64,000 nucleotides of DNA, taken from Seramator thermalis (GTDB taxonomy: Bacteria; Bacteroidota; Bacteroidia; Bacteroidales; Dysgonomonadaceae). The position numbers and the translations under genes were made by a program. Under the pieces are notes generated by a model that saw nothing but the letters and a program-made list of their open reading frames with translations, did not search any database and was not told where the DNA came from. Location of the stretch: assembly GCF_004138125.1 (NCBI RefSeq), contig NZ_RXHS01000004.1:62001-126000 (forward strand), read 5' to 3'. This document shows positions 6,127-30,468 of the stretch, one piece after another. How positions within the stretch are numbered: position 1 is the first letter of the stretch; each line of letters starts with the position of its first letter.

Positions 6127-7596
6127 TTAGGGCATTTCAGGCAGTTTCCATCCTTCACGGTAGTTGTGCTTGATAAGCTGTTGAGCATACTCATTGGCGT
6201 TGATCGGATCTGTCCATTTTTTATCGAACCGCGGATCACCGTCCACAATCTTAAACCCGTCCTCTACAATGGTACGAATCGTTGCATCGGCCGGAATATT
6301 AGTAAATCTCATGTTGGGTCCATCCCATTCCAGTTCTTGATTAAGAGACTGCAAACGAACAGCGAGCACGCCCATTACAACCATTTCGTTGAAAGGTCCT
6401 GCTTCGGAGAAGGGAGATGCAGTTTCTACCCTGTTTTCGGGGCTCTCTTTGCATGCGCGCACCCAATCCATCTCGTGAGAAAGGGTAACTTCGCGTTGCG
6501 TTTTCGGAGAATTAGGAACGCGTCCCGATACCAGCCAAGGATCTTTACCATAGCAACCACAAATGAGCGTGTCTTTTGTCCCATAGAAAATGCAAGCTCC
6601 ACCGGCATCATTCAGATTTTTACCAGCTGGTACACCGGCCGGACGTTCAGGCTGGATACCTCCGTCATACCAATGCACTTCAACCTCGGGCATAGCTACT
6701 TTCGGCAAATTTTCACGAGCAGGAAAAACCAGTTTCACTTTCTGAGCCACAGGGGCGCTGTCGGTCAAGAGCATAGTCGAAGTTCCTTGCGCTTTGGTTG
6801 GATAGCCGAGTTTCAGACCTTTGAAAACGGGATGAAGAATATGGCAAGCCATATCTCCAAGAGCTCCTGTTCCGAAATCCCACCATCCGCGCCAATTCCA
6901 CGGAGTGTAGATTTGGTTGAATGGACGCATCGGAGCCGGCCCGATAAATAGATCCCAATTCAATGTTTTGGGGATTGGATCAACTTTTGACGGACGGTTC
7001 AATCCCTGTGGCCAAATAGGTCGGTCGGTAAATGTTTCAACTTTGGTTACTTCACCGATTTGCCCGTCGTAAATCCAGTCGCAAATCTGACGAACTCCGG
7101 CACCTGACGAACCCTGATTACCCATTTGCGTGGCTACTTTGTATTTAGCAGCCAGTTTGGTAAGCAAGCGCGATTCGTAAACACTGTGAGTCAATGGTTT
7201 CTGCACATAAACATGTTTTCCCATGGTCATGGCATCGGCAGCAATTATTGCGTGGGTATGGTCGGAAGTTGCCACAACCACAGCGTCGATGCTTTTGCCC
7301 ATTTCATCAAACATTTTGCGATAATCGTAGTATTTTTTTGCGTTTGGGAAATAGTCAAACACGCGTTTGCTGTATTTCCAATCAACGTCGGCCAATCCTA
7401 CGATGTTTTGACTCTCGAGGTTTTTCAGGTTGGCAAAACCCATTCCTCCAACACCTACGCCGGCAATGTTTAACTTGTCGCTCGGTGCCGTATGACCCAT
7501 ACTTTTACCTAGTACCGATGACGGTACTACCGTTAGACCCGCAGCTGCTATCGCTCCGGTTTCTAAAAATTTTCTTCTTGAAATTTTTGATGACAT
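6127..7596 (-). CDS. Gfo/Idh/MocA oxidoreductase with Tat-type signal
   Basis: 489 residues. The N-terminus MSSKISRRKFLETGAIAAAG has a twin-arginine motif (SRRKFL), predicting folded export with bound cofactor. The Rossmann fold follows with NIAGVGVGGMG, VGLADVDWKYSKR, and DAVVVATSDHTHA. The usual EKP catalytic triplet appears as QKP (KHVYVQKPLTH). The C-terminal half contains TPWNWRGWWDFGTGALGDMA, shared with the secreted Bacteroidota subgroup, and a cysteine-containing GGACIFYGTKDTLICGCYG segment. Relatives oxidise or reduce sugar hydroxyls with NAD(P) tightly bound. Lies 41 bases after the second Gfo gene and 95 bases before the DUF1080 gene. A role in 3-oxidation of glycosides is inferred from neighbours. 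Confidence 0.9.
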   Translation of the reverse strand: MSSKISRRKFLETGAIAAAGLTVVPSSVLGKSMGHTAPSDKLNIAGVGVGGMGFANLKNLESQNIVGLADVDWKYSKRVFDYFPNAKKYYDYRKMFDEMGKSIDAVVVATSDHTHAIIAADAMTMGKHVYVQKPLTHSVYESRLLTKLAAKYKVATQMGNQGSSGAGVRQICDWIYDGQIGEVTKVETFTDRPIWPQGLNRPSKVDPIPKTLNWDLFIGPAPMRPFNQIYTPWNWRGWWDFGTGALGDMACHILHPVFKGLKLGYPTKAQGTSTMLLTDSAPVAQKVKLVFPARENLPKVAMPEVEVHWYDGGIQPERPAGVPAGKNLNDAGGACIFYGTKDTLICGCYGKDPWLVSGRVPNSPKTQREVTLSHEMDWVRACKESPENRVETASPFSEAGPFNEMVVMGVLAVRLQSLNQELEWDGPNMRFTNIPADATIRTIVEDGFKIVDGDPRFDKKWTDPINANEYAQQLIKHNYREGWKLPEMP

Positions 7597-15959: not shown

Positions 15960-16007
15960 ATCATTTTTCTTCTACCCTGTGAGATTTTTTGAACCGAAAT
16001 AGGAATG

Positions 16008-16073
16008 TTCTGACTTTCAGGCAGGGATTCTCTTGTTGTCTTTGTCCGCAGGTCGCATACCTGCGGTTATGAA
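16008..16073 (-). repeat. Inverted half copy of the modular palindromic element
   Basis: Contains a decayed CTGACTTTCAGGCAG palindrome followed by CCGCAGGT/ACCTGCGG (16046-16066) and TTATGAA. This is the reverse-complement arrangement of the right half of the full copies. It lies head to head with the copy starting at 16079. Confidence 0.6.
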
Positions 16074-16078
16074 GGTTA

Positions 16079-16218
16079 TTGCCTTTCAGGCAAAGATTAG
16101 CCGGTGAATTGAAAGCTTCCACTGCGAAGGTCTTTTCGGCTTGAAAAGCCGAATCTTCATAACCGCAGAATTCATTCTGCGGGGTGAATCGTCGGCAGAA
16201 ACCTGCCCGGAAGGCAGG
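16079..16218 (+). repeat. Modular palindromic repeat, copy 1
   Basis: About 140 bases made of successive hairpins: TTGCCTTTCAGGCAA (16079-16093), CGGCTTGAAAAGCCG (16137-16151), CCGCAGAAT...ATTCTGCGG (16163-16182) and CCTGCC/GGCAGG (16202-16218), with TTCATAA before the third. Clearly similar to copy 2 along its full length, including the spacers. Confidence 0.8.
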
Positions 16219-16815
16219 ACTTTTATTCGCTACGAAGGCGCAAAGACGCGAAGTCGTCAGATTATCGGAATTCATCAGTAAATCGATAAATCATCAAATC
16301 AATCAATTGTACATTGTGCATTATCCATTATCCATTGATTGTTGGGGCGTTGCCCCAAACCCCACATTCTTTTTTGCCTTGATGCAAAAAAGTATGCAAA
16401 AAAAAATCAAGACTACATCTCCTCATCGACCCGATAGCTGCTTGTTCGCTAAAAGACAAATAACTCACCGCCTGACGGCGGCTCAAACAGCTTGTCTTTT
16501 GCCTGACGGCACGCTCCCTGCGCAGATCGGGTACCCCGATGATGAGATGAGGTCGGGAAAATAAGGGAGAGTGGATGAGTGTGAGAGAAGAAAAGAAGTT
16601 AGAAGTGAAGAAATATCATAACCCCTGCACTGCCTGGCGGCAGTGCTTGTCCCCTTATCTTAAGGGGACTGTTTAGATGGTGTAATTCCGTAATTGAGAA
16701 TTAACAAGAAATAGAGAAATGGGAAGTAGAGAAATAAGAATTTTAAATTACGAATTTTCATTTCGTTTGTTCCTTTTCGCCGGAGTAGATATTTCTCGAT
16801 GCAGCTGCAATAGTT

Positions 16816-16955
16816 CTGCCTTTCAGGCAAAGGCTAGGCGGTGAATTGAAGGCTTCCACTGCGAAGGTATTTCCGGCTTGAAAAGCCGAATTTTCATAAC
16901 CGCAGAATTTATTCTGCGGGGTGAATCGGCTGCTCTCACCCTGCCTGAAAGGCAG
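16816..16955 (+). repeat. Modular palindromic repeat, copy 2
   Basis: Same order as copy 1: TGCCTTTCAGGCA (16817-16829), CGGCTTGAAAAGCCG (16874-16888), CCGCAGAAT...ATTCTGCGG (16900-16919) and CTGCCTGAAAGGCAG (16941-16955). The first and last palindromes are reverse complements of each other, so they also act as terminal inverted repeats. Confidence 0.8.
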
Positions 16956-17075
16956 AACTAATTATCCTTCAGAAAAAAAATGTTCCCTGTCCTTTTCCCC
17001 TGCATCCGCATTCACCTGTCCCTGCGAAAGCATTCGTCACTCGACAAACTGTAAGGCAAAACTCCCGAGAGAACG

Positions 17076-17885
17076 TCAACCGCAAATCAGAACTTTACCG
17101 CTGCCAGCATACTTCACCTCCTGCGGTTTGCCGTCAAAACCCACTTCTCCAAATTCCACCGCAGCCGAAACAATCAAAGTAACCTCCTCCGTTAAATCGT
17201 CGCGCAGCGATTCGTTCAACCCAACTTCAACCATTTGTCCTTCCCGAATATTCACGGCCGGAATCCATTCGCCGGTGAAGGTCCGGAAAATCCCGTTCAG
17301 CTTTTCGTTTGCGGGAACGTATTGTTTCAAATCTTCCCGATAAACCATATCCGATACACTACCCAGACTTATCGATATTCGGAAGAACGGTAATCGCCGA
17401 ATATTCAGCAAATCGAACGATGTGTTGATGCGGGGAATATGCACGACCGCCCTCAAATGCTCCCTCTCTATTTCGACACCTGTCGACACCTTCAGTACCG
17501 AATTGAACGAATAGTTCCGGTTGAAATTAAAGCCGCTCAAAGCCTGACGGCAGGAAGAAAGCCGGATATTCCTCGTGCCGACCTCATTTTCGGCATCCGC
17601 CTTTTGAACAGCTTTAGCCAATGCATTTAACGATGAGGTAAGATTGTAGTCGGCAACCCGTTGCAATCCGCCAAAAGCATTTTTAACGCATGAGGCAAAC
17701 CGCGTGCAACCCTTCCACTCGTTTTGCTGCAAACGCAACTTTTCGAATTTGGGAGAATTTTTAATCGTTTGCTTTGAAGCACCCCCTTTGCTTCTGACGA
17801 TAATCTTATCGCTTCCCCGCCGTTTGTAGAAACTGAGTCCACCCACGTTCCCTTCAATTTCGAATCCGCCTTTAAGTACAGCCAT
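17076..17885 (-). CDS. Orphan protein, unrecognised (distantly DUF6266-like start)
   Basis: 269 residues, no signal peptide or membrane segment. The N-terminus MAVLKGGFEIEGNVGGLSFY followed by KRRGSDKIIVRSKGG resembles the G-x-V-G-(x)-W/Y-K opening of DUF6266 proteins, which occur in multiple copies in Bacteroidota, but I do not recognise the rest. The middle is helical, with several cysteines (SCVKNAF, SSCRQAL); the C-terminal half is strand-rich. Ile/Val-rich GKVLICG ends the protein. It has its own promoter (17920-17950) and is isolated, flanked on both sides by the modular palindromic repeats. No function can be assigned. Confidence 0.75.
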   Translation of the reverse strand: MAVLKGGFEIEGNVGGLSFYKRRGSDKIIVRSKGGASKQTIKNSPKFEKLRLQQNEWKGCTRFASCVKNAFGGLQRVADYNLTSSLNALAKAVQKADAENEVGTRNIRLSSCRQALSGFNFNRNYSFNSVLKVSTGVEIEREHLRAVVHIPRINTSFDLLNIRRLPFFRISISLGSVSDMVYREDLKQYVPANEKLNGIFRTFTGEWIPAVNIREGQMVEVGLNESLRDDLTEEVTLIVSAAVEFGEVGFDGKPQEVKYAGSGKVLICG

Positions 17886-17919
17886 AGCATGAATGTATTA
17901 CGTATTGTATCGAATAGGA

Positions 17920-17950
17920 CAAAGATAATAATAAATTGTCCGAAAATCAA
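17920..17950 (-). promoter_or_regulatory. Promoter of the orphan gene
   Basis: On the minus strand, TTG (17948-17950), 20 bases, then TATCTTTG (17920-17927), a good match to the Bacteroidota pattern, 35 bases before the start codon at 17885. It supports this start and suggests the gene is expressed. Confidence 0.65.
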
Positions 17951-18164
17951 GAATAAAACTGAAATAAAACATAGATAATACATATTTTAAAAAGTATGTA
18001 TCAAATAAATGATATATAAGTATTATATATATTTAATATGAGTATAATCATAAACTAAAAAAACGGCTAAAGTAAGAACGAAATTCGATGAAAAAAAACG
18101 ATTCCGGGACGAATAACGAGAGCGGAAAAAGTGAACCGGGTATCCAAAGACAAAAAAGAGGATA
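17951..18164. other. AT-rich spacer, no gene seen
   Basis: Strongly AT-rich (runs of TATATATT near 18010-18045). No open frame, RNA gene or hairpin that I can support. Confidence 0.5.
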
Positions 18165-18313
18165 TTGCCTTTCAGGCAAAGGCTGCCTTATTGCCGAAGG
18201 AAGCGACACATCGTTTTTCGGCATAGTTTTGGCTTGAAAAGCCGAATTTTCATAACCGCAGAATTCATTTTGCGGAGAAGAGAATCAACCGATATAATCT
18301 GCCTGAAAGGCAG
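18165..18313 (+). repeat. Modular palindromic repeat, copy 3 (diverged)
   Basis: Keeps TTGCCTTTCAGGCAA (18165-18179), GGCTTGAAAAGCC (18231-18243), CCGCAGAATTCATTTTGCGG (18256-18275) and CTGCCTGAAAGGCAG (18299-18313). Between the first and second palindrome it has a different insert that forms its own stem, TGCCGAA/TTCGGCA. Confidence 0.78.
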
Positions 18314-18408
18314 AATAAATTCTCATTCATAATAACCTAACATCTATTATCATGTAAACTATATGATTATGATGAGGTAAGTGGTCCAGAACTAATTTAA
18401 AAAAACTT

Positions 18409-18495: not shown

Positions 18496-18650
18496 CAGCC
18501 AAATGAAAGCTTAATTCTCGTTTTCATCCAATTGAATATGAGAAATCAAAAGGAAGCCATAAGTTTTTTGTCTTTCCGACAATATTTTTGAAGCAAGAAT
18601 GTGATAATGAACGATTGATACGGATTTTCAAAAAACATCTTCATCGCTAT

Positions 18651-27570: not shown

Positions 27571-30468
27571 TTATCGTCCACACAGGGTTTTGAAAGAACA
27601 GTATTGGCAATTTTTTTCGTTGTCGGTTTGCTTGAAAGGAACGTCGGGATTGAACATCTCGGACAAACATTGATTCAACAAATCGGTAAACTCATCAAAA
27701 TAAACCGAAGCATCGCTCACGCGTTCGGGTTTACTTGAAGAGGCGGCCTTTAGAGAAATAAATGGATCAAAGTTTTCGGAATAAATCGATCGCATAAAAT
27801 ATAAGGCAGGCGACAACTTTCGACCGGGAAATTGTCTGTCATAAAAAAACGAGTACAGGAAAACCTGCAAAATCTTCGACAAATCGGCATTGCGTGAGGT
27901 ATCGAAGAGAAATGGTAATTCGGAAAACACAGTACTACCTGCTCCCGTTTTGTAATCGACAATTCGATAGATATCTCCCTGCATATCGATGCGGTCGATA
28001 CTGCCCTTGAACTGAACCACCAAGTCATCGTTCACCCGATAAGCAGTTTCGAATTTGTATTCTGAACCAATGTAACGAAAAGGCGTAAACGACTTGTCCA
28101 CTTCGAGAGTCTGCTTTACATAACTGCGAATGACTTCACCAATCAAATAATTTTCGCCAACAAGCGGTTGGACGTTTGCATCATCTCTGAAATAATACCT
28201 TGCAAAAGCCTTTTCTATCAAAGTGTTCAAATAGTCGTCGTCCTTAATAATAACCGACAACGCGTCGGGTGTTACCATTTGGTTTTCGTATCGTCTGTAA
28301 ATCTGCTCCATCACCCGATGAAAAATCGAACCGAAGACATCCGACTCCACCTTCTCGCTCACTACTTCCTCATCCGAAAACCCTTCGATCGCCGAAAAAT
28401 AGAATTGCAACGAGCAATTGATATAATTATTGAGCTGTGAAGCCGAAAGCCACAAATCACCACCGGCCCTGAATCTGTCGATTTTTTGCATAACAGAAGG
28501 TGTTTTCTCAATCGAAATTGAAGGCATAGCTGATGCGAAAACATTATAAGTAGCCACGCGTTCGCGAATATCGAATGCATCGCCGTACAAAAACTTCAGT
28601 TGCGTGAAGTACCGACTTACTTCGCCCGTTTGCAAACCTTCGGTGCGTGTGTCGTAGAGCATGAAAATGCGCCTTGCTCTACCAATCATGCGATAGAAAT
28701 GATAGGCATAGGTGCTATCCTGATGCTCGTAAGTAGGCATTCCGAATCCTTTACGGAGGGTATAGGGAATAAACGAATTGGCACTACTTTTCACGGGAAA
28801 AACACCTTCGTTCATCGACAAAAGAATGATATTTTCGAAATCGAGCACACGCGTTTCAAGGACACCCATCACCTGCAATCCCGAAAGCGGTTCACCGCTG
28901 AATGAAACGCTAATACCCTGTGCCAAACGCTTCAACAAACGAAAATAGACATCAACAGATATACTGTCCACATTCTTCAATGTATCACTCAATCGGGTAA
29001 TGGCTTTGTAATATTGCACGACGAATTCTCTTTCGAGATCGATGGACGAAGCATCATTTTTCGGCTCATCAATGTGCAATTTCTCGGTCGTCAGCGAAGA
29101 GTAAATAGTTTGCATAATGAGTTGCAGATAACCCGGAATCTGTCGCCAATCAGATATAGGTTTGAAAATGAGCCGGAGCAATTCTTGTTGAGGAATGTCC
29201 GACAAGGAAACAACAACACGATTATTCGCAACAATATAATTTTTCAACTTTTCAGCTTCATCTTTAGACGAAGCCTTAACAAGCGGATGATTGAGAATTG
29301 CGGTTACAAATCTGTGATAAAAAACAGTTTCACCGTCACGCGAAGTGCGCACATTGTGTTGCAAATCTGCAATATGATTCACAAGACTGGCAACCGATGC
29401 GTGCGACATAGCATAACCCATCGTTACGTTGATTTTCCCGATTTCCGGAGGAATGGAGTACAGAATGGGGAGGAGCAAATTTTCATCAGGCAAAACCACC
29501 GCGGTTTGAATTGCCTCGTCAGGATCGGTGATTGCATTGGTCTCAATCAGCTGCGAAAGAAGTTGCGAAACATATTTTGCCTGTCCCACAGCCGAAGGCA
29601 CTCCGATAAGCTCTATAATAGGTTTATCGCAATCCCTCTCATTTTTTTCGATCTCGAAACGAGAAGGAAAACGACGTAAATTATCCTTTATCCAAAACGA
29701 AGCTTTGTTTTGTGGATCATTCACCATCTGAGATTCGTAATCCCAATAAAAATCAGCTTTGCCTACGTTTCGAAGATATTCCATCAACGCTATTTCCGAA
29801 GGCGTGAGCGCATTGAGCCCGACAAAAACATACGAGTGAGCATTCAACACAAAATCATCTTTGGCAAGCGCCTTTTCGGCAACATATCGAAACGTCATTC
29901 CCTCGTAAGCCCAACCCTTTGTTTCAAGCGCCGAACGAAACGAAGTGTACAGCTCGAAAAGAATTTGCCATGTCTCCTGAAATTTTTTCTTCGAATCGCT
30001 CAACCCACCGGACATGAAGTTACTCCAAAAACGCCGGATAGCTTCGATTTGTGATGCCGAAAGGTAAGATTTATCATCCTCAAGCGATTTCAAATCGCGC
30101 ACATTCCGAAAAAGTTGTCGCGCATCAATCAGATATTTGTCCACATCATCGAAATCATTCAACAGCATTTCACCCCAAAACAAGAAATCGTCAAATGATT
30201 CGTCGGCATTGCCGATTTGTTGATAACAGCGATAAAGCTCTGTCAGCAAAGCAATCCGATCGGCTGTTTGATAGGGTGACAATCCTACAAAAAGTTCCTG
30301 AATGGTGACTATATCCGGCGAGAAAATTGGTTTCCCCGCTATCTCCGACAGATATTTTTGAAAAAAAACGCCGGCACGCTTATTCGGAAATACAAACGTA
30401 TGCTTGTAGAGCTCGTTTGCAAACTGTGAGTAGAAAATGTCGGCGACCCGATATAGGAATGGTTTCAT
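27571..30468 (-). CDS. AddB-like Fe-S PD-(D/E)XK nuclease/inactivated helicase
   Basis: 965 residues. N-terminal region resembles a degenerate UvrD-type helicase (HTFVFPNKRAGVFFQKYLSE; IILLSMNEGVFPVKSSANSF; DSTYAYHFYRMIGRARR). The C-terminal RecB-family nuclease domain contains VQFKGSIDRIDMQGDIYR followed by IVDYKTGAG, giving the catalytic Asp and Lys. Four cysteines that would hold a 4Fe-4S cluster are visible: one in NNYINCSLQFYF and three in CQYCSFKTLCG at the very end, as in AddB. This suggests a role in double-strand break end resection. No AddA gene is present in the window. The start at 30468 (MKPFLYRVADIF) is preferred over a 46-codon extension without homology. Confidence 0.85.
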   Translation of the reverse strand: MKPFLYRVADIFYSQFANELYKHTFVFPNKRAGVFFQKYLSEIAGKPIFSPDIVTIQELFVGLSPYQTADRIALLTELYRCYQQIGNADESFDDFLFWGEMLLNDFDDVDKYLIDARQLFRNVRDLKSLEDDKSYLSASQIEAIRRFWSNFMSGGLSDSKKKFQETWQILFELYTSFRSALETKGWAYEGMTFRYVAEKALAKDDFVLNAHSYVFVGLNALTPSEIALMEYLRNVGKADFYWDYESQMVNDPQNKASFWIKDNLRRFPSRFEIEKNERDCDKPIIELIGVPSAVGQAKYVSQLLSQLIETNAITDPDEAIQTAVVLPDENLLLPILYSIPPEIGKINVTMGYAMSHASVASLVNHIADLQHNVRTSRDGETVFYHRFVTAILNHPLVKASSKDEAEKLKNYIVANNRVVVSLSDIPQQELLRLIFKPISDWRQIPGYLQLIMQTIYSSLTTEKLHIDEPKNDASSIDLEREFVVQYYKAITRLSDTLKNVDSISVDVYFRLLKRLAQGISVSFSGEPLSGLQVMGVLETRVLDFENIILLSMNEGVFPVKSSANSFIPYTLRKGFGMPTYEHQDSTYAYHFYRMIGRARRIFMLYDTRTEGLQTGEVSRYFTQLKFLYGDAFDIRERVATYNVFASAMPSISIEKTPSVMQKIDRFRAGGDLWLSASQLNNYINCSLQFYFSAIEGFSDEEVVSEKVESDVFGSIFHRVMEQIYRRYENQMVTPDALSVIIKDDDYLNTLIEKAFARYYFRDDANVQPLVGENYLIGEVIRSYVKQTLEVDKSFTPFRYIGSEYKFETAYRVNDDLVVQFKGSIDRIDMQGDIYRIVDYKTGAGSTVFSELPFLFDTSRNADLSKILQVFLYSFFYDRQFPGRKLSPALYFMRSIYSENFDPFISLKAASSSKPERVSDASVYFDEFTDLLNQCLSEMFNPDVPFKQTDNEKNCQYCSFKTLCGR

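Follow-up and report, generated by a model that had tools for sequence, protein, structure and literature searches.

The hairpin-rich elements found between positions 16007 and 18316 of the window, that is, of the whole 64,000-nucleotide stretch of Seramator thermalis DNA analysed here, are very probably REP/BIME-like and non-autonomous, and copied from the multi-hairpin ends that belong to a family of Y1 (HUH) transposases of IS200-like subclass 1.2. The initial annotation, which had proposed a palindromic repeat family of the REP/MITE type with a Y1 transposase acting in trans, is largely right and, apart from the corrections given below, finds support in its main points.

Copies of the element in the window

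The window carries three copies, composed of the following features.

about 16007-16220, + strand: copy 1, a complete tail-to-tail unit, one of 23 paired units genome-wide
16007-16092, + strand: left half-unit of copy 1, with GTTC as its foot, order as in relatives
16011-16023: hairpin A of copy 1, TGaCTTTCAGGCA, one change
16046-16066: hairpin B of copy 1, CCGCAGGTCGCATACCTGCGG
16067-16073: TTATGAA of copy 1
16080-16092: outer hairpin of the left half-unit of copy 1, TGCCTTTCAGGCA
16138-16220, + strand: right half-unit of copy 1, inverted
16138-16150: outer hairpin of this right half-unit, GGCTTGAAAAGCC
16156-16162: TTCATAA of this right half-unit
16163-16182: hairpin of this right half-unit, CCGCAGAATTCATTCTGCGG
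16204-16216: hairpin A' of this right half-unit, TGCCCGGAAGGCA, foot GGAC
16811-16960, + strand: copy 2, fused outer and inner A hairpins, spacer, intact right half-unit
18166-18316, + strand: copy 3, one A-type hairpin, spacer, right half-unit
16080-16092, 16817-16829, 18166-18178: TGCCTTTCAGGCA in copies 1, 2 and 3
16138-16150, 16875-16887, 18231-18243: GGCTTGAAAAGCC in copies 1, 2 and 3
16156-16182, 16893-16919, 18249-18275: TTCATAA with CCGCAG..CTGCGG in copies 1, 2 and 3
16942-16954, 18300-18312: final hairpin TGCCTGAAAGGCA in copies 2 and 3; copy 1 has TGCCCGGAAGGCA instead
17076-17885, - strand: orphan open reading frame of 269 aa between copies 2 and 3

These positions bear out the earlier description of three copies whose hairpins follow one common order. 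Copy 1 is composed of a left half-unit, a spacer of about 45 nt and a right half-unit. The supposed inverted half copy, described as facing copy 1 head to head, belongs to copy 1 itself as its left half. The same left and right halves recur in the 23 paired units, and the full element is larger than first described.

The unit seen whole in copy 1 is shortened in copies 2 and 3. The ends of copy 2 form a perfect 19-bp terminal inverted repeat (TAGTTCTGCCTTTCAGGCA / TGCCTGAAAGGCAGAACTA), and TGCCTGAAAGGCA is the final hairpin of both copies 2 and 3. Because the single A hairpin of copy 2 is bordered on its left as the outer A is and on its right as the inner A is, this copy looks like the product of a deletion between two direct A hairpins, with loss of B-TTATGAA. 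Copy 3 is without the left half, having no B hairpin on that side, and its spacer differs and holds an unrelated internal hairpin, as had been seen. The variation for which an exchange of modules had been suggested is better read as half-units pairing variously and as deletion between direct hairpins.

At 18540-18584 the left flank resembles that of a copy on contig C22 (CCAATTG.ATATGA.AAATCAAAAGGAAGC.ATAAGTT) and is followed by a decayed A hairpin, TTGTCTTTCCGACAA; judged by this resemblance, the site is probably a fourth, degenerate remnant of the element. The orphan open reading frame at 17076-17885 gave no match in Pfam and NCBIfam, and nothing was found that links it to the element.

The repeat family in the genome

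The genome of the window's strain (2.98 Mb, 39 contigs, 99.97% complete) contains 74 exact matches of the 13-mer TGCCTTTCAGGCA and none of its reversed-sequence control, which is far above chance and confirms a genome-wide repeat family; a BLAST search with copy 2 returned 112 pieces. In the 348 kb around the copies, 33 left and 26 right half-units were mapped on 15 contigs, among them 23 paired units of one common order and polarity, spanning 171-299 bp and mostly 200-238 bp. Further copies are thus present both in the genome and, as described below, in relatives, and the distribution over 15 contigs rules out a single recent local duplication, an explanation which the initial annotation had regarded as fatal to its own.

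Each half-unit starts with hairpin A at a foot GTTC, GTCC or GTAC, followed by hairpin B, TTATGAA and a variable outer hairpin, whose foot is GTTC, GTAC or GTCC in the listed copies, with one right end shifted to GTAT. The pairs in this genome are tail-to-tail, opposite to the arrangement around tnpA in relatives. Elements are also found near the contig ends at C17 and C39. The target duplications that the initial annotation had proposed to look for were not evident, no consistent duplicated bases being seen by eye in the flanks of the copies; a Y1 enzyme is not expected to produce target-site duplications.

The copies lie among further repeat modules, both at 16220-16700 of the window and in the flanks of most copies (e.g. 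loci L062, L063 and L064). With up to one mismatch in the 348 kb, and with controls of zero in each case, the module TTTATTTGCCACGAAGGCGCAAAGACGCGAAG has 13 matches, the module ATCATAACCCC..GTCCCCTTATCTTAAGGGGAC..CTCTTAAGATAAGAG..CCGCCGAAGGCGG..GTTATGAT has 25-34, and the module GGGGC-GTT-GCCCC..TTTTTTGCCTTGATGCAAAAAAG has 16. In design the GTTATGAT ends are similar to B-TTATGAA, and they may belong to another family of the same kind.

Matched Y1 transposase genes in related genera

In relatives, other genera among them (genomes G004, G053, G074, G315, G066 and G009), half-units directly flank a Y1 (IS200-like) tnpA gene. The gene lies between two inverted half-units which read, outward from the gene, hairpin A with foot GTTC or GTCC, hairpin B, TTATGAA and outer hairpin. 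In G004 the sole PF01797 gene of the genome (C22:29359-29700) is found between CTGCCTTTCAGGCAG at 29320 (-) and 29807 (+), the order being GGCTTGAAAAGCC-AAATTTTCATAA-hairpin B-CTGCCTGAAAGGCAG-[tnpA, 149 aa]-CTGCCTTTCAGGCAG-hairpin B-TTATGAAAATT-TGGCTTTTCAAGCC. In G053 the Y1 gene (C75:7680-8024) is placed between arrays of half-units, with units at 7079 and 8043, and A-type hairpins also adjoin the related gene in G074 (two genes), G315, G066 and G009.

A-type hairpins flank all seven TnpAs that are at least 63% identical to the G004 TnpA, in G009 clearly at the outer position only, and the TnpAs less similar to it carry other hairpins. In a maximum-likelihood tree of 51 proteins the seven A-type TnpAs form one clade (fork support 89/82, and 100/98 for the six-row fork). 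The TnpA of this clade scores 67 bits against the NCBIfam profile transpos_IS200 (cut-off 55) and 81.9 bits against Pfam Y1_Tnp (cut-off 23), and only 19.9 bits against the RAYT profile REP_Tyr_transpos of NCBIfam (cut-off 80). Its sequence relatives in the PDB include the TnpA of IS608 (E = 1.3e-7). A Y1 transposase with matching terminal hairpins, as the initial annotation had proposed, is present in relatives, in one TnpA clade, and would be the agent of mobilisation; its signature is IS200-like, of subclass 1.2, and it is not a canonical RAYT.

The initial annotation had seen no Y1 transposase in the window, and searches with Pfam and with the G004 protein found no hairpin-matched TnpA anywhere in the window's own genome. 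The two Y1 genes which this genome does contain (33% identity) fall outside the A-type clade and were rejected as the matched enzyme, being distant and carrying other hairpins, of the CCCTACGGG/GCTCCGTAGGAGC type. Downstream of these genes (L060 and L061, on C38 and C7) are the hairpins GCCCCGATGGGGC / GCTCCTACGGAGC and GTCCCTACGGGAC, with the linker TGGTAGAA; these motifs were counted one to six times each in the 348 kb around the copies. The matched enzyme seems to have been lost from the window's genome, or to lie in an assembly gap, and the copies seem to be orphaned there.

Distribution among relatives

Copies were matched in five of 61 genomes searched, a patchy distribution that comprises the genome itself, one other genome of its genus, two more from its family and one from another family of the order. 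Of the 101 genomes examined within the family, 11 contain the hairpin CTGCCTTTCAGGCAG, and these cover 7 of its 15 genera. A scan for exact 21-mers in genome contigs detected two Dysgonomonadaceae contigs, the named metagenome-assembled genomes it hits being labelled Dysgonamonadaceae and Petrimonas, and the same scan of viral contigs gave no match.

Gene-free pairs of half-units occur in both arrangements. In G004, G074 and G121 they are arranged head-to-head, about 20-30 bp of spacer replacing tnpA, and in the window's genome and G084 they are tail-to-tail. The head-to-head unit of G121 recurs on another contig with 94% identity over locus bases 1420-1635, and this repeated stretch stops close to its outer hairpins. 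At locus L129 of G074 the flanks of a head-to-head pair themselves form a long inverted repeat around it, a hint that neighbouring DNA can be captured or inverted by such pairs.

An empty site with exact excision was found at neither of the two loci searched, the window locus and the G121 pair. For the window locus, a search for the ortholog and the empty site gave no clean empty site in G003, because the ArsR side is kept from window position 18625 on and the left gene is elsewhere; for the G121 pair the relatives match one flank only.

Three-hairpin ends at Y1 loci of the Bacteroidales

Relatives of the TnpA (E <= 1e-15) are present in 187 of 393 genomes of the order. The signature Y...Q..HH is found in 50 of 51 proteins examined, in several of them exactly as YIKNQKEHH, and the HuH motif is NHLH or NHIH in most members of the A-type clade, DHIH in G009 and DH[IVL]H in many others. 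Inverted repeats scoring at least 40 are present in 28 of 50 Y1 flanks vs none of 40 control open reading frames of the same loci (p = 3e-10). The ordered series A-B-TTAT-outer hairpin with perfect stems occurs at 14 of 51 Y1 loci, vs none of 1020 shuffles and none of 26 other open reading frames, and at these 14 loci the stems stay paired while their sequences differ between families. Under this strict perfect-stem rule many Y1 loci are without a clear unit; as the loci were selected for their resemblance to a single TnpA and several can come from one genome, the counts do not represent a random sample.

A second matched family is present in G066, where the flank motif of the other tnpA (C198), a repeat CCCGGGG-TTATCCATG, recurs 27 times with a control of zero. 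At C198 and 26 other places (L241-L244) this family takes the forms CCCGGGG/CCCGTGG-TTATCCATGT, and part of it forms regular arrays with a spacing of about 311 bp (C206:17393-18342). The generic B plus TTAT pattern has 0-7 matches each in nine genomes outside the family, so that the evidence for dispersal concerns some families and does not extend to all.

Origin of the copies

By analogy with studied Y1 enzymes of the IS200/IS605 and RAYT groups, which bind single-stranded hairpins and cut near their foot (PMC6006769, PMC8266576), the TnpA would bind the folded hairpins on single-stranded DNA, would cut at or near the foot and could move or copy pairs of half-units in trans. In the window's genome the orphaned copies would now change by recombination and deletion. 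Spread through duplication of larger blocks is possible, because the flanking modules, compared copy by copy, are common to most copies; since in addition the tail-to-tail pairs reverse the tnpA arrangement, recombination or block duplication probably contributed to the copies in this genome.

Taken further, this becomes an alternative in which an old element was spread here by recombination and block duplication only, with no transposase of its own in the lineage. The common flanking modules, a near-identical tandem trio at C32:295601-296587 with a spacing of about 377 bp and the failure to find a matched tnpA in this genome fit such an origin. However, in some copies (1 and 3 of the window, and C22) the element stops at the hairpin feet and the flanks beyond are unrelated, and sister genera have both dispersed units and the matched enzyme, so we regard it as unlikely.

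Far less probable is a structured RNA or regulatory element, such as a terminator, an attenuator or a small RNA, whose fold is kept for a function of the transcript. Single-strand folding is strong (z-scores of -5.7, -8.4 and -5.4 for copies 1, 2 and 3) and the stems are conserved while sequences vary between families, yet an Rfam scan of the region gave nothing above gathering score (P9, 20.4 vs 43 bits), the copies mapped in the genome show no single orientation relative to flanking genes, and both the patchy presence in relatives and the linkage to tnpA speak against it.

Classical MITEs, derived by internal deletion from a DDE insertion sequence whose terminal inverted repeats would be AGTTCTGCCTTTCAGGCAG, would match the perfect repeats of copy 2 and a size of 200-240 bp, but the ends are themselves hairpins, identical ends flank Y1 tnpA in several relatives and no consistent flank duplication was seen by eye, which makes them the most improbable explanation of all.

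Comparison with known systems

Transposase-linked ends of the Y1 type, our preferred reading, can be compared with four described groups. Subclass 1.2 of TnpA_Y1 was listed by Quentin et al. (2018) with 'no' REPs and as generally without typical terminal structures (PMC6006769). The TnpAs described here share with this subclass a size of 148-150 aa, the Y...Q..HH signature, the occurrence in Bacteroidales and the few gene copies per genome (PMC6006769). They differ from its description in their three-hairpin ends and in the dispersed copies in two families, and the HuH motif of the subclass is DH[IV]H (PMC6006769), whereas most members of the A-type clade have NHLH or NHIH.

As in REPtrons, a Y1 enzyme is accompanied by matched palindromes, with one family per enzyme clade, and as in REPtrons, BIMEs and REPINs there are dispersed non-autonomous copies in head-to-head and tail-to-tail pairs (PMC2817692, PMC3116915, PMC8266576). 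With canonical RAYT/REP systems the elements share many dispersed extragenic copies, in the window's genome and for the second family in G066, and a Y1 gene flanked by the repeat, in relatives only and not in the window's genome. Canonical systems have one hairpin per end, here there are two or three. The assignment to canonical RAYT/REP fails because two defining features are absent: the listed copies have GTTC, GTCC or GTAC in place of the 5' GT[AG]G foot, and the protein is below the RAYT cut-off.

The closest parallel in function is offered by the TIRtrons (Di Nocera et al. 2013, PMC3733652). They likewise consist of Y1-type (TIRYT) genes between long inverted repeats which are in part self-complementary and copies of which form moderately abundant families, as here; the passages concerned mention no Bacteroidales cases, no A-B-TTAT-C half-unit and no GTTC-type foot. 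As for the IS200/IS605 group (IS608, ISDra2), the transpos_IS200 profile is matched and the IS608 TnpA is a sequence relative, but unlike the near-identical copies of these insertion sequences the genes here are mostly present in one or few divergent copies per genome, and several hairpins per end and dispersed gene-free end pairs set them apart. No description of these Bacteroidales units was found in the open-access literature, which was covered incompletely. The system is a new, multi-hairpin variant of REP/TIR-like systems; it would work in the manner of a REPtron or TIRtron product and is apparently orphaned in the window's genome.

Significance

On balance, and with some reserve, we lean towards a wider interpretation in which subclass 1.2 Y1 enzymes of the Bacteroidales would form order-wide REPtron-like systems with clade-specific, co-evolved ends, and gene-free pairs would persist after loss of the enzyme. 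This includes a three-hairpin end (A, B, TTAT, outer), a non-GTAG foot and the seeding by each clade of its own genome, and after enzyme loss the tail-to-tail units and arrays would remain, as in the window.

REPs and their transposases have been studied mostly in Proteobacteria and with the GT[AG]G foot. In a subclass reported without REPs, the ends are now seen to be structured and diversified in sequence, and some have dispersed copies; the Bacteroidales offer natural enzyme-substrate pairs with which to ask how hairpins lacking the usual foot are recognised by a Y1 enzyme. Some of the hairpin-rich intergenic DNA in Bacteroidales genomes could be explained by such elements, and in the genome of the window the repeats seem to have outlived their enzyme.
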